64,000 nucleotides of DNA from an uncultured Aliiroseovarius sp. (GTDB taxonomy: Bacteria > Pseudomonadota > Alphaproteobacteria > Rhodobacterales > Rhodobacteraceae): positions 372,001-436,000 of the forward strand of contig NZ_CANLNB010000003.1 of NCBI RefSeq assembly GCF_947492455.1, given 5' to 3'. Shown here piece after piece: positions 5,839-21,125 of this stretch (position 1 is the stretch's first letter; every line of letters starts with the position of its first letter). The notes beneath the pieces were generated by a model. The model was not told the DNA's origin. It worked only from the letters and a program-made list of their open reading frames with translations, and did not search any database. The translations under genes and the position numbers were made by a program.

Positions 5839-5913
5839 GCTGTGGTAGCTCAGTGGTAGAGCGCACCCTTGGTAAGGGTGAGGTCGGGAGTTCAATCCTC
5901 CCTCACAGCACCA
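5839..5913 (+). tRNA. tRNA-Thr (anticodon GGT)
   Basis: A complete cloverleaf can be drawn: acceptor stem GCTGTGG/TCACAGC, D arm GCTC...GAGC, anticodon stem CACCC/GGGTG around loop TTGGTAA with anticodon GGT at 5871-5873, and T arm GGGAG-TTCAATC-CTCCC. The discriminator A and the CCA end are encoded. It reads ACC (and ACT) threonine codons. It stands alone between murA-side genes and the CBS gene, and no integrase or attachment-site duplication is seen next to it. Confidence 0.96.
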
Positions 5914-14343: not shown

Positions 14344-15000
14344 ATGGTTTTAAGCTCAATTGGCGCTGGTGCACTGGAAAGGTTGCGTCAACGCGGACAC
14401 ACCCGCATCTACAAGAAGAAGGAAGTGGTGTTTCGCTTTGGCGATCCGGGCTTGACGCTTTTGATCGTCTCATCGGGAACGGTCGAAATCAGCGTTACAA
14501 CAGCGGTTGGGCAGAAATCCATTTTGGGCGTGGCGACAGCCGGCGATGTGCTGGGCGATATCGCCTGTCTGGATGGCGGCCCCCGCAGTGCCGATGTGGT
14601 CGCCTTGGAAACCATGGAAGCGGTCGAGGTGCAGCGCCAAGACGTGTTGCAACTGTTCCGCGAGGATCCAGATAGCGCCATCTTGGTCATTGAAGCGCTT
14701 TGCCAGAAAGCCCGCAATGCCTCGGAAATGTTCGAGGTGCAGACCATGCAAAGCGGGCAGGCGCGTCTTGCGGCCTGTCTGCTAAGGCTGCTTCCGAACG
14801 CTGTACATGGTGAAGACGGTCATCTTGCCGTGAAGGCCAGTCAAAGTTGGCTTGGTGCCTATGCCGGCCTGACGCGCGAGAATGTAAACCGGCAGCTTAA
14901 GGCTTGGGCAAAGGACGATGTTGCCCGGTTTGAGAAGGGTTTCGTTGTGATCGAAGATCAGGATCGCTTGAGAGAGATTGCTCAGGGCGACGATCACTAG
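14344..15000 (+). CDS. Crp/Fnr-family regulator with CRP-like cAMP pocket and DNA-contact residues
   Basis: The 218-residue protein has an N-terminal cyclic-nucleotide-binding fold and a C-terminal winged helix. It lacks the N-terminal cysteine cluster of Fnr. Aligned by eye to E. coli CRP, the phosphate-binding loop reads G71-D-I...P-R81-S82 (CRP has G71-E72...R82-S83), so the Arg-Ser pair is kept and Glu becomes Asp. The recognition helix reads T-R178-E179-N-V-N-R183, matching CRP contact residues R180, E181 and R185. It is therefore expected to bind TGTGA-type sites and may respond to a cyclic nucleotide. GGGGA precedes ATG 14344. A perfect CRP-type palindrome lies 65 bases after its stop. 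Confidence 0.85.
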   Translation: MVLSSIGAGALERLRQRGHTRIYKKKEVVFRFGDPGLTLLIVSSGTVEISVTTAVGQKSILGVATAGDVLGDIACLDGGPRSADVVALETMEAVEVQRQDVLQLFREDPDSAILVIEALCQKARNASEMFEVQTMQSGQARLAACLLRLLPNAVHGEDGHLAVKASQSWLGAYAGLTRENVNRQLKAWAKDDVARFEKGFVVIEDQDRLREIAQGDDH

Positions 15001-15064
15001 GCCTTACTTTCAAAATCGCACCAATAAGTTGAAAATGAATAAAAATCTTTCGATTTTCGCCAAT

Positions 15065-15082
15065 CTGTGACGCGCGTCACAG
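15065..15082. promoter_or_regulatory. Perfect CRP-type operator
   Basis: CTGTGACGCGCGTCACAG is an exact 18-base palindrome containing TGTGA-N6-TCACA, the two CRP half-sites. It lies 65 bases after a regulator gene whose recognition helix has the CRP contact residues. Its centre, 15073.5, is 41.5 bases before a start point predicted at about 15115, the class II activator position. Confidence 0.75.
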
Positions 15083-15114
15083 GTGCGACATGTGCCGCGT
15101 GCTATCCAAAGGTA

Positions 15115-15270
15115 GAAGACGCTGAAAGCTTTTGGGGAAAGTTATTTTAGCACGCTTAGATAGATAGAGCTCGCTTTGGGTGGCGCTGGAAACGGCGTTT
15201 TGGAGTGAGAATTGGTCCCGACCTCCGGGGTGCCTAAGTGTCTTCCCCCGTCAGATGACGGACGGGGTTT
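15115..15270 (+). ncRNA. Candidate CRP-controlled small RNA
   Basis: This is inferred, not a known family. The 5' end is placed about seven bases after TATCCA (15103-15108), at class II distance from the CRP-type operator. The 3' end is the hairpin CCCCGTC/GACGGGG followed by TTTGGTT. Between them is a hairpin CGCTG-GAAA-CGGCG with a GNRA tetraloop (15184-15197) and no open frame with a plausible start. The alternative is that it is simply spacer between converging transcripts. Both ends are predictions. Confidence 0.4.
15246..15270 (+). terminator. Hairpin with short T-rich tail
   Basis: Perfect 7-bp stem CCCCGTC/GACGGGG with loop AGATGACG, followed on the plus strand by TTTGGTTG. On the minus strand there is no T-run after it, so it fits a plus-strand transcript better than the cyclase operon. 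Confidence 0.5.
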
Positions 15271-15351
15271 GGTTGTGCCATTACTGGCTGCCGTGAGTGG
15301 TGAGGCGCTGCGTCAGCTCTGGGTTCTCAGGTCCAGAGGCGCCGACACACC

Positions 15352-18204
15352 TTAAGCCGATTGCGAAAGCTCTGTCCGGATATCGCGGATGGAGCTGTCC
15401 CACTCGTGCTCACCAGCAGACTCAGACAAATGCTCGGCCTGTTCCAACAGTTTTTGCGCTGTTTCGACATCTCCGTTCGCCACATGTGCCTTCGCCAACG
15501 CCGCCTTATAGAAGGGGGCGTTCAGGTTGGCCCCAATCATGCTGGCTTGCTCGGTTAGCATTTCCAGCATGGCCGGGGTTTCGGTCGTATTGCCCTGGTA
15601 AATCTGGATAATCGTCATCCAAACGCGCCCGATCAACGACCAGAATTGCGCTTGTTGTTCATCAGCAATTTCGATCCCGGCCTGAACTTCCTTGGCAGCC
15701 AGATCCAGATACCCACCCGCCAACAGAGCTTGCCCGCCAAAAACATGGATCCATGGGATCTGTGCGATGGCACCGATCGCTTTCAGGTGTTCTTGTGCTT
15801 GCGTCATGGCGGCTTGTGCCCCGTCCAGATCGCCTTCGCGGCTTGCCACATGGGCGTCCGCCGACAGAACCGAGGCCAGCGGATCTGCGCCCAGCTCTAG
15901 GAACAGGCGGCCGTGATCTTCGACGCGATAGATGGATTTCAACTGGGCGCTTCGCTCTGCGGCCAGGTCAAACTGCCCTGAATAGAGTGCATGGGCAGTC
16001 TCGTTCACCAACCACATGACTTTCAGCTCGTCATCGCCGTCGCGTGCAAGCTTCTCCATCATCTCGACATACTCGCCGCTCTCGCGCACGCGTCCATTGA
16101 TGATGCGATGGGCAAACAGACCGTAGAGTGCGGTCATGCGCTGGCGGTCGGTGCCCTCGGCATAGGTGATGGCATCTTCCAGCAGCTGATAACGTTCCAG
16201 CACCACAGGGTGCGAGAAGCCCATGCGTTGCACCGTGGCGCTGGCCAGAAGCGACAGGATGGGCAGGTATTCGGGGCGCGAGACCTGCTCGGGTGCGGCC
16301 TGGTCTTCCATGTTCGCGCGTGCATGATCCAGATAGGCCATCGACTGGTCAAAGTTCACAGCCATCAGCATATGAATGCCCGCGGCGATGCATGCCGCCG
16401 GAAGGTTTTCATGGTCGCGTGCGGCCATGCGGTGGTCCGCGATCAGATGCGGATAGGCGCTGCAATAGTCCGGGTCATGGGTCTGCATGGCGTCCGCAAA
16501 GGACTTATGCAGAGAACGCCGACGTTTTCCCGGGATCATTTCGTAGGCTGCATCGCGCAGCAGGATGTGATCGAAAAAGAGGTTCTCTTCCCCATACGGA
16601 TTGAAGATGCCGCGGATGGTCAAAATCCGCAGCTCATCGGCAAGGGACGGGCGATCAGGCAACAGATGCGCCACGCGTGCAGGGTGAAAATCGCGCCCCA
16701 AGATTGACGCGCATTGGATCACGTCTCGCAGAGCGCCGAAGCTGTTAATAATGGCCTGAAAGGTGGCTTCGATCGTTTGGGGCAGCTGTTGCGATCCGTC
16801 CTCGTTCCCGACCTGACGTGCGTGGGTAGCCAGTGCCGACAGGAACAAGGGATTGCCCTCGGCCGCTTCGATGATCCGGGCGCGCTTGGTATCGTCAAAC
16901 TCGGGATAGGCGGATAGGGCTTCATGTGCGGCCTCCTCCGAAAGCGGAGCTAGATGGACCGCCGTGAGTGGGGCGTTTTCCAGCAATGTATCGATCTTCT
17001 CGGACGGGCGACTGGTAAGCACGATGCGTGGCGCGGTGCCGTCTGCCTGTAAAAGCGCCTGAAGGACTGCAATGGTGTCTTCATCGAACCAGTGAAAGTC
17101 GTCAAAGGTGAGGGCCGCCGTTCGGGTTTGCGCCAGTCCAGCCAGCGCGCGGGACGCCAATGTGATCCTGCGCGATTGCAATTGCTCGGGCGTCAGAAGA
17201 ATGGGCTGAGCGGCCTGCAGGCCAAGCAGCCCGGCCACCACCATGATGTCTTGATCTTCGAGCGTGACCCCGATTGACTTAAACTGCGCCGCCAGGTCCT
17301 CAAGCGAAGATTGTGCATGCAGATCCAGCTCGCGCCGAAGGGTTTCGACCACAGGGAACAGCGCGGATTGCTGTAGGTTGGCACGGGCGTCAACCCGGAC
17401 CACACCAGCGTTCTTCTGGGTGCGGCTGAAGGCGTCCAGCAGCACGGTTTTCCCGATACCCGCCGGGCCGATGATCGCATGGGCGCGGCTGGCGTCGTTT
17501 TGTAGAAGCGCAAGTTCCTTGTCGCGCTCCAACAGGTTAGAGCCCTCGGTGTGATCCTCTTGGAACTGGAAGCCGGTGACCTCGATCAGCTCGACCGGTT
17601 GGTCGATGCCTTTCAGAAGGCGCGTGTCATGCGATGCTTCATCAAGCCGCGCGAGCCGCGATAGGAAAGACTTCGTCTGGCCAGAGATCACAACGCCGCC
17701 CACAGGCGCCTGTTCTTGCAGGCGCGCGGCGCGGTTGACGTGCAGCCCGGTCAGCTGCGGAAACAGCGCGCCCTGCTGGCCGACGCGACACATGATCTGG
17801 CCGGTGTCGATCCCGACCCGGACCTGTTGACCGTTCACTTTCTCAGGCATGGATTTTGCAATCGACAGACCTGCCGCAATGGCCGACAGCGCCGAATCCT
17901 CGCCATCATGGTCCAGCCCGAAGCAAGACAGCACCCCGTCGCCATAGCGCTGTAGGACACGACCGCGATAGGTTTCCACCGTGTCATTCACCAGTTGGTG
18001 AAAGGCGGCGATGGTGTCGTCATAGGTCTCAAGCTCGGTCGAGTTCGCAAAGGCGGTCGAACCGACAAGGTCAATGAACTGAATGGTTAGGATGCGCAGT
18101 TCGGGATTGTCGTCCAAGGCGACGACCTCGGTCCCGCAATGGCTGCAAAACCGCGCGCCCTCATGCAGTGCTTCACCGCATGACATACAATTCATGGCAT
18201 TCAT
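15352..18204 (-). CDS. Class III nucleotide cyclase with zinc ribbon, ATPase and TPR-like regions
   Basis: The 950-residue protein has an N-terminal zinc ribbon (C6, C9, C20, C23) and a class III cyclase domain (about 35-190) with metal aspartates D45 (FIDLVGST) and D89 (RYGDGV) and the transition-state pair N157/R161 (HVNRAARL). An AAA/STAND-type ATPase follows, with Walker A GPAGIGKT and Walker B LTFDDFHW, then helical TPR-like repeats to the end. By alignment the adenine-selecting Lys is Gln85 and the Asp position appears to be Leu154, so ATP preference is not assured. ATG 18204 is chosen because of GATGAGG just upstream. It starts two bases after the oxidoreductase stop, implying an operon. 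Its substrate and trigger are unknown. Confidence 0.88.
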   Translation of the reverse strand: MNAMNCMSCGEALHEGARFCSHCGTEVVALDDNPELRILTIQFIDLVGSTAFANSTELETYDDTIAAFHQLVNDTVETYRGRVLQRYGDGVLSCFGLDHDGEDSALSAIAAGLSIAKSMPEKVNGQQVRVGIDTGQIMCRVGQQGALFPQLTGLHVNRAARLQEQAPVGGVVISGQTKSFLSRLARLDEASHDTRLLKGIDQPVELIEVTGFQFQEDHTEGSNLLERDKELALLQNDASRAHAIIGPAGIGKTVLLDAFSRTQKNAGVVRVDARANLQQSALFPVVETLRRELDLHAQSSLEDLAAQFKSIGVTLEDQDIMVVAGLLGLQAAQPILLTPEQLQSRRITLASRALAGLAQTRTAALTFDDFHWFDEDTIAVLQALLQADGTAPRIVLTSRPSEKIDTLLENAPLTAVHLAPLSEEAAHEALSAYPEFDDTKRARIIEAAEGNPLFLSALATHARQVGNEDGSQQLPQTIEATFQAIINSFGALRDVIQCASILGRDFHPARVAHLLPDRPSLADELRILTIRGIFNPYGEENLFFDHILLRDAAYEMIPGKRRRSLHKSFADAMQTHDPDYCSAYPHLIADHRMAARDHENLPAACIAAGIHMLMAVNFDQSMAYLDHARANMEDQAAPEQVSRPEYLPILSLLASATVQRMGFSHPVVLERYQLLEDAITYAEGTDRQRMTALYGLFAHRIINGRVRESGEYVEMMEKLARDGDDELKVMWLVNETAHALYSGQFDLAAERSAQLKSIYRVEDHGRLFLELGADPLASVLSADAHVASREGDLDGAQAAMTQAQEHLKAIGAIAQIPWIHVFGGQALLAGGYLDLAAKEVQAGIEIADEQQAQFWSLIGRVWMTIIQIYQGNTTETPAMLEMLTEQASMIGANLNAPFYKAALAKAHVANGDVETAQKLLEQAEHLSESAGEHEWDSSIRDIRTELSQSA

Positions 18205-18206
18205 AT

Positions 18207-21125
18207 TTACCTCATCGACCTTTGACGCACCCATTCCCTTGCCATGGCCGCGTGACGGACCCGCTTGCTGTCCAGCGGGTTGGTCATCGCCCATGAGCAC
18301 CATACCCGGAATGCACCGGGAAGGCGTTCACCAGTTTGCAACTGAAGCGGTGCCGCGTCAAACGAAGTTGTTGGAAAACCGTTAGGATCCGGGTCCTTAA
18401 CCTCGATCTGGGCCGACACTGGCGCAACGTAAGCGCGGTCCAGTTGCAGGTCGAACGCGTTGTAGAACAGACGGCCCGACGCATTGCGGGTGACAAAGGT
18501 CATGTTCAGCAGATTCGAGATCGCCCCCTGTGCCGGGTGGCCGGGTAGGGGGTCCGGGTCCATGTGTTGTTGGAACGTGGCCTGCATTTTCATCCCGCGC
18601 GGGCCGGTGGCCGTAAAACGCGTGTTCTCAAGCTTGATGTCGGACCAGACCTTCGGCATCGCGTAGAATACCTTGCCTGCCATGATCGCCGACTTGCTGT
18701 TCACATAAAGCCTGCGTGGATAGAGAAGCGGCGCCTGCCGTGCCTCGGCGGTGCGGGTATAAGGGATGGCGAAGGTGGCCTCTCCATAGGGGGACATCGC
18801 CATGAAATCCGGAATGAACGACCCGCGCACGTTGTGATAGCTGCAGAACGACATGCCGACCGGGTGGTATCCGGGACGGGTCAGGGGGCTTGGCCCCAGC
18901 TCGATCCCCGGTGGCAGCATGGCCTGCACTTCTGCGCGCGGGACTTCGTAGAAGACGAACACGCCCGTCATTTCGCCGCGTGCAAAGAACGGGGTCAGCG
19001 GCCATTTCGTGCCCGAGACCGAGTTCGTCTGGAACATCGCCTTTTCCGACACGGTTTCTTCGCGGGCGATATCCTCGGCCCCGACATTCAACAGTTTCAC
19101 GCCGGTAACGGCAGAGGCACAGGCGATGCCGGACATGGTCGCGCCTTCCACGCAGCCAGCGTTCAACCCGCAGCGCGTCCAGTCACCCGCCAGATAGAGG
19201 TTGGCAAAGCCGCTCTGCGAGGGCGCCAGCCGGTGATAGACGCTGTTTGTGACTGACAGCACATAGCGTTCAGACCCGAACATGTTCACGCGGGAATAAA
19301 TCGCGGCGTCTTCGCTTTCGTGCAGAAGGCTGCGGTCAAACGTGCCGTCCTTTTCCGCCCCCGGCCAGAACTTCACCAGATCCTTGTCCATCCACCGCCC
19401 GAAGCTGTCGCGGAAGTCGTGGATGTCTTCGCCATCTGGTGCGGGTGAGCAAAAATAGGCGATGGATTTGGGATTGTCCGCGCCCCACTCCTCATGCGGG
19501 ATCAGGTGGGACATGTCTGCCCATGTGTCCAGCGGCTCGGCAAAGCCGGTGATGACCGTCCGCATCGGGGAGGGGGGCAGGGATTTTTGCGAGTTATGCG
19601 CTTTCACGCGCTTTTCCCACCCTAGCTGTTTTGGCGTTTTGTTCAGCCACAGTTGCATTGCGTGGGTCGGGACCGTCTTGACCCGGTCCAGCATGTTGCG
19701 CCAACGCTCGGAGGCGATGGACAGCTCTTGTGACATATAGGGCAGCGACCCGATCGAGGCGCCAAGGATGACAAGGTCGAAATCCTCGCCCCGTTTCAGC
19801 GTAAACGGCTCGCCCTTCGGCGGCGTGCGCTCGCTTTCAAAGTTGATGCCGCTGGCTTTCAGGGCCGCTCCGTCCACCAGCTGATCCCACAAGGGTTCCG
19901 AGGGCCAGCAGGGCAGACCATCCACGTCGACCAGCGGTTCGTAGCTGCCGGATTTCACCTTGGCCTGCCGCACCATGCTGATGCGCTCAATATGGGTGCG
20001 GTCTTCGTCCAGATGCAGATTGCGAGCGGCGTTGAAGAACTCGAACTTCACGCCCAGCTCTTTCAAGACCAGATAGTAAGGGCCGAAGATCGTATCACCC
20101 ATCCCGGCCTGCATCTTGTGAAAGATCGCACCGGAATAAGTGAAGATCAGCCGTGTCATGGCCCGCAAGGCCGTGCCCGCGCCAGCATCACCCTGACGTT
20201 CGGTGTTGCCCATCGGGAAGCCAAACACGAAGTCATAGCAGCCTCGGATCGACACCCATTTCAAAGCTTGATCGCTGACCCCGTTCATGCGCAGCCAGTC
20301 CGAGAACTCCCACTGGTCCAGCACGTCATAGCCATTGGTGAACGTGTCCGAGCTGACCACCCCGTGCATATAGCCCAACCCGATATCCAGAAGGTTCAGG
20401 CCCCGGCGCACACTGTCGCGGGCCATGTTTTCAGGCGTCTGCTGGCTGTGCACCTCGGCCTGCACATCTTCGATGATCTCAAGCAACAGGTCCGCGTTGT
20501 GCGGCCCCACAGGAAGGCCGGCCCCCGGCAGGGCCTTCAGATGCGACAGGATGCTTTCATGTCCGTCCAACAGGCCATCCGGAACCTCGATCCCCAAGGG
20601 CCCATCCGCGCCGCCTTCCAGCTCGCCCCGGCGCAGGAACTCGATCATGATCTGCAAAATCCGCATCATCATCTCGAAAGGCGAGGGGACCTCGGTCTCG
20701 TTCCCCGGCACCTCGTCATATTCAGGTAGATCAATTACCCAAGGGCGCCACGGGTTTTCGTTCGGGTCGTCGGTGGGGACGTGTTCGGCCAGGAACAAAT
20801 GCGACAGCGGCTTGAACGCCTTGTCCATCGTGCCAAGAGGGTCACTTTTCTTGCGCAGTCCCAGCTCGACCATCTGTTCATAACAGCGGCGCATGTTGCG
20901 AAAAGCGTTCTGATAAAACCCGGCCCAGACATGCAGCCCGTGTTCCTCGATCCGCTGCCCAAACTCAGCGTTGCGCCCGCTGGCGCCTTTTCCGCCCGTG
21001 CGCCATCCAAGCTGATAGACGGTAATGTCGTATTTCTTGTCCCAATCCGGCGTTTGCGTAATGGCGTAAATGGCCGTCATGGCCCCGACACCGCCACCAA
21101 TCACGGCGATCTTTTGCTTCTCCAT
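18207..21125 (-). CDS. FAD-dependent oxidoreductase fused to acetoacetate-decarboxylase-like domain
   Basis: The 972-residue protein has two parts. Residues 1-690 form an amine-oxidase/phytoene-desaturase-like FAD oxidoreductase with the dinucleotide motif IAVIGGGVGAM, then GWRTGGKGASGR, and the C-terminal FAD stretch NLYLAGDWTRCGLNAGCVEGA. Residues about 705-960 resemble acetoacetate decarboxylase; AMPKVW contains Lys825 at the position of the Schiff-base Lys, with Val in place of the second Lys. There is no signal peptide. It is the first gene of a two-gene operon with the cyclase. The fusion implies linked oxidation and decarboxylation, or use of the ADC fold as a binding domain; the substrate is unknown. 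Confidence 0.8.
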   Translation of the reverse strand: MEKQKIAVIGGGVGAMTAIYAITQTPDWDKKYDITVYQLGWRTGGKGASGRNAEFGQRIEEHGLHVWAGFYQNAFRNMRRCYEQMVELGLRKKSDPLGTMDKAFKPLSHLFLAEHVPTDDPNENPWRPWVIDLPEYDEVPGNETEVPSPFEMMMRILQIMIEFLRRGELEGGADGPLGIEVPDGLLDGHESILSHLKALPGAGLPVGPHNADLLLEIIEDVQAEVHSQQTPENMARDSVRRGLNLLDIGLGYMHGVVSSDTFTNGYDVLDQWEFSDWLRMNGVSDQALKWVSIRGCYDFVFGFPMGNTERQGDAGAGTALRAMTRLIFTYSGAIFHKMQAGMGDTIFGPYYLVLKELGVKFEFFNAARNLHLDEDRTHIERISMVRQAKVKSGSYEPLVDVDGLPCWPSEPLWDQLVDGAALKASGINFESERTPPKGEPFTLKRGEDFDLVILGASIGSLPYMSQELSIASERWRNMLDRVKTVPTHAMQLWLNKTPKQLGWEKRVKAHNSQKSLPPSPMRTVITGFAEPLDTWADMSHLIPHEEWGADNPKSIAYFCSPAPDGEDIHDFRDSFGRWMDKDLVKFWPGAEKDGTFDRSLLHESEDAAIYSRVNMFGSERYVLSVTNSVYHRLAPSQSGFANLYLAGDWTRCGLNAGCVEGATMSGIACASAVTGVKLLNVGAEDIAREETVSEKAMFQTNSVSGTKWPLTPFFARGEMTGVFVFYEVPRAEVQAMLPPGIELGPSPLTRPGYHPVGMSFCSYHNVRGSFIPDFMAMSPYGEATFAIPYTRTAEARQAPLLYPRRLYVNSKSAIMAGKVFYAMPKVWSDIKLENTRFTATGPRGMKMQATFQQHMDPDPLPGHPAQGAISNLLNMTFVTRNASGRLFYNAFDLQLDRAYVAPVSAQIEVKDPDPNGFPTTSFDAAPLQLQTGERLPGAFRVWCSWAMTNPLDSKRVRHAAMAREWVRQRSMR

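Follow-up and report, generated by a model that had tools for sequence, protein, structure and literature searches.

The window, that is, the whole 64-kb stretch of DNA analyzed here, lies within a 3.09-Mb genome and contains a 351-bp intergenic space (positions 15001 to 15351), with a Crp-family gene (crp) on one side and a convergent gene encoding a class III cyclase on the other. Between these genes for a Crp-type regulator and a cyclic-nucleotide synthase, marine Aliiroseovarius carries a conserved, folded, apparently non-coding RNA of about 230 bases (Table 1). The locus was compared across the 15 genomes that bear it, own genome (G000) counted, which fall into groups A (n = 8) and B (n = 7), drawn by similarity and without a tree. 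The gene order crp, RNA, cyclase was found in 15/15 loci, and the cyclase gene adjoins crp throughout.

Table 1. Features of the crp-cyclase locus (positions in the window) and founding copies of a second RNA-like element (positions in their own loci).
Feature	Position	Strand	Evidence or remark
Crp/Fnr-family regulator, 218 aa	14344-15000	+	Pfam PF00027 (cNMP-binding), 3.5e-21; PF13545 (HTH_Crp_2), 3.7e-12
Crp-type operator TGTGACGCGCGTCACA	15066-15081	.	Exact in 15/15 loci; sole exact match in own genome
-10 box TATCCA	15103-15108	+	21 nt past operator; same arrangement in 15/15
Conserved structured RNA element, 232 nt	15115-15346	+	Alignments A2/A3; model R1; 15/21 genus genomes; pair counts
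Domain 1, closed by P1 (15115-15120/15240-15245)	15115-15245	+	Consensus fold
P2, in domain 1	15121-15130/15140-15151	+	Consensus fold
P3, in domain 1	15171-15179/15200-15208	+	Consensus fold
P3a, tip of P3	15183-15187/15194-15198	+	Consensus fold; 2 double-changed pairs
P4, in domain 1	15216-15220/15226-15230	+	Single-sequence folds only
P5 hairpin (previously described as terminator)	15246-15267	+	Stem kept with compensatory changes
P6 hairpin	15271-15292	+	Consensus fold, pair counts
Near-invariant unpaired segment GTGAGTGGTGA, between P6 and P7	15293-15303	+	Alignment
P7 3' hairpin (15304-15308/15339-15343 and 15317-15325/15330-15338)	15304-15343	+	Inner stem: 3 double-changed pairs
Class III nucleotide cyclase - AAA - TPR protein, 983 aa	15352-18303	-	Pfam Guanylate_cyc, 1.4e-11; AAA_16, 3.3e-14
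Second element, founding loci	L038 2177-2276; L049 2155-2256; L044 1325-1433 (-); L051 1318-1416 (-)		After exact TGTGA-N6-TCACA

The cyclic-nucleotide pocket motif of the regulator, GDIACLDGGPRSAD, and its recognition helix, LTRENVNRQL, are invariant in all 15 genomes. This helix contains R-E-x3-R, as in CRP, and the best matches of the regulator among solved structures are Crp-family regulators. As the protein scored 59.6 bits on the NCBIfam CRP model, against a cut-off of 266, it is described here as Crp-like and not as a proven orthologue of CRP, and cAMP binding is not assured. The stop codon of crp lies 65 bp before the operator. The cyclase frame and the end of a 972-aa frame (18207 to 21125, minus strand) share 97 bp; the start of the 972-aa frame resembles an FAD-dependent oxidoreductase by eye. 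The two frames look like one operon, and the cyclase may have a later start than 18303.

A preliminary description of this DNA had reported a perfect TGTGA-N6-TCACA palindrome at a class II distance of 41.5 bases from a predicted transcription start. The palindrome was confirmed, although its beginning had been placed one base early (15065), and its center (15073.5) is indeed 41.5 bases from G15115, where the conserved RNA begins. Exact operator matches number one in the window and one in the entire own genome, compared with 0 for a reversed-pattern control. Allowing one mismatch at most, we counted 2 sites in the window versus 1.73 expected, so that within this single sequence only the perfect form and the position are informative. 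The significance of the operator is settled by comparison, because every locus-bearing genome retains the exact palindrome. Its half-sites were 100% identical in all comparisons, versus 34 to 59% identity for the upstream flank and 29 to 63% for the stretch between the operator and the -10 box (33.8% and 29.2%, respectively, between groups A and B). The spacing from the operator to TAT[ACT]CA is 21 nt in all 15 loci, and the distance from the operator center to the RNA start is 41.5 in 8 genomes and 42.5 in 7, i.e., the start is constant within one base. An activating operator position before the RNA start is thus present in 15/15. No sigma-70-type promoter-like site was detected in 14500 to 16000.

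The operator is the sole exact Crp-type site in 7 of the 15 genomes (G000, G002, G004, G006, G010, G015, and the 56% complete G011); the remaining 8 contain 3 to 6 exact palindromes each. When one mismatch was allowed, 55 sites were counted in the own genome versus 9 for the reversed pattern, and weaker operator sites may therefore matter too. Given these near-matches and the extra palindromes in 8 genomes, the adjacent Crp may well act on further targets.

The conserved block downstream of the operator measures 232 to 237 nt across genomes; its predicted 5' end (15115) follows from the class II spacing, and its 3' end (15346) was set by the drop in conservation. A small RNA had been proposed here previously, ending at 15270. 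A conserved element is indeed present there but is bigger than claimed, as conservation continues for another 76 nt. Selective constraint on the block is evident within both groups, where RNA identity was 94.2% (A) and 91.3% (B), compared with 79.5% and 76.9% for all bases of crp and 55.0% and 52.1% for its 4-fold sites. Between groups, the corresponding values were 66.4% for the RNA, 61.2% for crp, and 37.6% for crp 4-fold sites. The RNA is therefore more conserved than the gene of the regulator beside it.

An RNAalifold consensus of the element contains 59 pairs, 14 of them with double compensatory changes; P1 has 3 double-changed pairs. In a separate pair count, 98.9% of 884 pair cells were kept (shuffles averaged 92.7%, with 0/500 as high), and neither the covariation score (0.294 versus 0.178) nor the number of double-changed cells (73 versus 29.6) was equaled in any of 500 shuffles. 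Double-changed pairs numbered 14 versus 10.2 in shuffles, 5 of 500 of which reached 14, and many double changes do no more than separate groups A and B, so that few independent events are represented. Further pair types were not above the shuffles (32 versus 34.8; 500/500 as high or higher). Controls with slid partners gave at most 48.8% paired cells and at most 5 double-changed pairs. When the same cells were read as the minus strand, only 79.4% paired, which favors the plus strand, and 18 pairs exchange Watson-Crick and G-U. Folding energies were unremarkable, both for 15112 to 15275 (z = -1.91) and for the full-length RNA in all 15 genomes (60 shuffles per strand; z = -0.64 to -3.36 for the plus strand and -0.98 to -2.20 for the minus strand). 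Support for the RNA rests on conservation and covariation rather than on folding stability. The untranslated, structured RNA proposed earlier behind a class II Crp-type operator beside crp is supported: the comparison of related genomes suggested at the time revealed both conserved operator spacing and compensatory stem changes across the 15 loci.

Two segments of the element are near-invariant, namely, CAGATGACGG, which spans the P5 loop and 3' strand, and the unpaired GTGAGTGGTGA, at the end of which a one-base indel (GTG-AGG or GTGAAGG) separates the groups. Within P3, tandem wobble pairs UUGG/UUGG (15176 to 15179 with 15200 to 15203; A3 columns 65 to 68 and 89 to 92) are invariant in all 15 genomes. 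As this motif never varies, pairing there is not proven; instead of a plain helix, it may be a conserved internal loop or a motif that binds protein or metal. The GNRA tetraloop noted previously exists in the own genome as GAAA, but it is not conserved (UUUA in G018 and other loops in the second group); a GNRA tertiary contact was rejected for this reason.

The hairpin at 15246 to 15270 had been read as a terminator. A stem with a T-rich tail is found at P5, but the terminator is not conserved and the stem is internal to the element. P5 is terminator-like in 7/8 genomes of one group and 0/7 of the other, its T-rich tail is not conserved, and the region contains 2 terminator-like sites versus 1.7 in shuffles. 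On the plus strand, no conserved terminator-like site was found up to 420 nt from the RNA start across the 15 loci; beyond the P5 sites, there is one other, in G009. A conserved intrinsic terminator with a 3'-terminal U-run, as expected of Hfq-type trans-acting sRNAs, was thus not found.

Model R1 detected the RNA in 15 of the 21 genus genomes, always between crp and the cyclase gene. Under stricter filters, with which weak matches are lost, it matched none of 294 other family genomes, each representing one genus; among the 295 including the own genome, only the latter matched. In the 6 genus genomes without the RNA (one 87% complete), the best Crp matches are 21 to 35% identical, and a cyclase match, 23% identical, occurs in one. 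These 6 genomes thus lack orthologues of both crp and the cyclase gene, and relatives that keep the flanking genes while losing the operator and stems, which would have spoken against the proposed RNA, were not seen. In G008 (87% complete), to which R1 had no match, an operator sequence identical to that of some relatives lies inside an apparent thiamine-synthesis coding stretch, as judged by eye. A strict motif scan of genome contigs returned 10 stretches, 8 of them labeled Aliiroseovarius, 1 from an alphaproteobacterial MAG, and 1 from Pseudomonas; the last had no R1 match and was taken as chance. In two genomes of other genera (loci L134 and L135 of G123 and G115), a 41 to 43% identical Crp is encoded convergent with and abutting a cyclase-matching gene, the product of which is 29% and 26% identical to that of the window. 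Neither R1 matches nor exact operators were detected at these two loci. Such pairs without the RNA suggest a regulator-cyclase partnership.

Another RNA-like element, about 100 nt long, was found behind a different Crp paralogue, 30 to 34% identical to that of the window, in four founding genera (Table 1). The founders have a terminator-like hairpin, and a T-rich tail and a CATCCCCAGTGTTC core are each present in 3/4. Model R2, built from the four founders, matched 11/295 family genomes, founders included; the 7 new matches were weaker (E = 5e-8 to 9e-4). Of the 7, five adjoin the same Crp paralogue, and in 2 of these five an exact palindrome separates the gene from the element; for the other 2 matches, no Crp match was found within the flanks fetched. 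In total, the paralogue-linked element occurs in nine other genera (also at L140, L141, L143, L144, and L145), with an exact TGTGA-N6-TCACA in six. Rfam gave no match in the loci scanned, which comprised the four founders and others. As R2 did not match the window and R1 did not match the second-element loci, the same layout seems to recur with distinct RNAs, and the arrangement of a Crp-family gene, its own operator, and an RNA seems to have arisen more than once in the family.

Taken together, we consider it very probable that the element is a structured, regulatory non-coding RNA (about 232 nt) expressed from a class II promoter that the adjacent Crp activates together with a cyclic nucleotide. 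The convergent class III cyclase would plausibly make the nucleotide, probably cAMP; the adjacent crp product, loaded with it, would bind the operator centered at -41.5; and bound Crp would activate the class II promoter, which has no recognizable -35 box. The RNA would then regulate either by pairing of its conserved unpaired segments with mRNAs or by binding a protein. Regulation in trans is the most usual role of such RNAs. Pairing was tried with the start regions of crp (15), the cyclase gene (1), and nqr (4); in this weak test, with 12 mononucleotide shuffles each, z ranged from -3.4 to 2.4, with no consistent signal. For crp, the values were -3.4 in G002, -2.4 in G003, and -1.6 to 1.8 in the other 13 genomes.

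The main rival to regulation in trans is cis feedback on the cyclase, with the RNA acting mainly as an antisense RNA at the 3' end of the mRNA from the convergent cyclase gene and a negative loop running from cyclic nucleotide through Crp to cyclase. The genes are convergent, crp and the cyclase gene flank the RNA in 15/15, and the cyclase stop lies 246 to 251 nt past the operator start in 11/15, so that 34 to 39 nt of the RNA 3' end, including P7, overlap the cyclase coding end in these genomes. However, in the other 4, the window included, the cyclase frame stops just outside the RNA, yet P7 is kept; the covariation of its pairs is that of an RNA fold, and P1 to P6 lie beyond the overlap. 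We therefore regard this alternative as unlikely. Even less can be said for the block belonging to the crp transcript as a 3' untranslated region or a processed tail, in which case the operator would serve repression or autoregulation. It does lie downstream of crp in the same direction, with the 65 bp given above between stop and operator, but the spacing of operator and -10 box and the position of the RNA at the predicted start are constant within one base in 15/15, and conservation is poor in the flank that precedes the operator, making this reading very improbable.

A small-protein mRNA or a dual-function RNA is hardly to be expected either. The region had been described as lacking an open frame. 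A 47-codon TTG frame (15212 to 15355) is in fact listed, but it is not conserved in frame, and although each genome has frames of 10 to about 70 codons, some of which extend past the RNA, none retains both its start and its phase in all 15 loci by inspection. In addition, the one-base indel in the near-invariant GTG(A)AGG run, together with another at column 158, breaks the phase, and paired columns change in compensation. Given the covarying helices and the lack of a conserved frame, the RNA is apparently non-coding, with conserved structure.

The co-occurrence of crp, the cyclase gene, and the RNA brings together a regulator, its likely signal source, and an RNA. It is a fair possibility, though somewhat less likely than not, that they form a self-contained cassette in which the product of a class III cyclase is read by a Crp whose main or only output is the structured RNA. 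If so, a single RNA may be the main output of one cyclase-Crp pair, a compact system.

The element was compared with known RNAs using Rfam 15 (4227 families, gathering cut-offs). Over the window, the sole match at cut-off was a tRNA (5839 to 5910), with none at the RNA locus. At E <= 5, 15050 to 15400 gave one minus-strand match of 20.9 bits (cut-off 55; E = 0.21), the family of which is neither CyaR nor Spot 42. The RNA is thus a candidate for a family absent from Rfam 15. 6S RNA (RF00013) is likewise structured and of broadly similar length; it was rejected, as RF00013 had no match at the locus and the 6S-like match of the genome lies elsewhere (G000:C3:589548-589701, minus strand; 41 bits, under the Rfam cut-off of 46.4).

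Few small RNAs have been reported under Crp control. The enterobacterial CyaR and Spot 42 are controlled by CRP-cAMP, where CRP is global and unlinked to them. In the accessible portions of the literature searched, which consisted mostly of papers outside subscription (including PMC4809877, PMC10127613, and PMC2864571), an RNA such as the one described here is not reported, and the sole match for small RNAs in Aliiroseovarius concerns, in its available text, denitrification. Crp-controlled small RNAs are named there for Escherichia coli, Salmonella, Vibrionales, and cyanobacteria, in addition to Sinorhizobium meliloti (PMC10127613, available text). In the last, the small non-coding RNA SMelC181 is activated by Clr with cAMP or cGMP, as set out in the same text (PMC10127613). 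It differs in that Clr has GTNNCNNNNGNNAC as its core motif and acts on many targets, and the available text describes no crp-cyclase cassette around it (PMC10127613). Compared by description, SMelC181 nevertheless resembles the RNA of this study in being an alphaproteobacterial small RNA under a Crp-family protein and a cyclic nucleotide (PMC10127613, available text), and by biology it is the closest known system.
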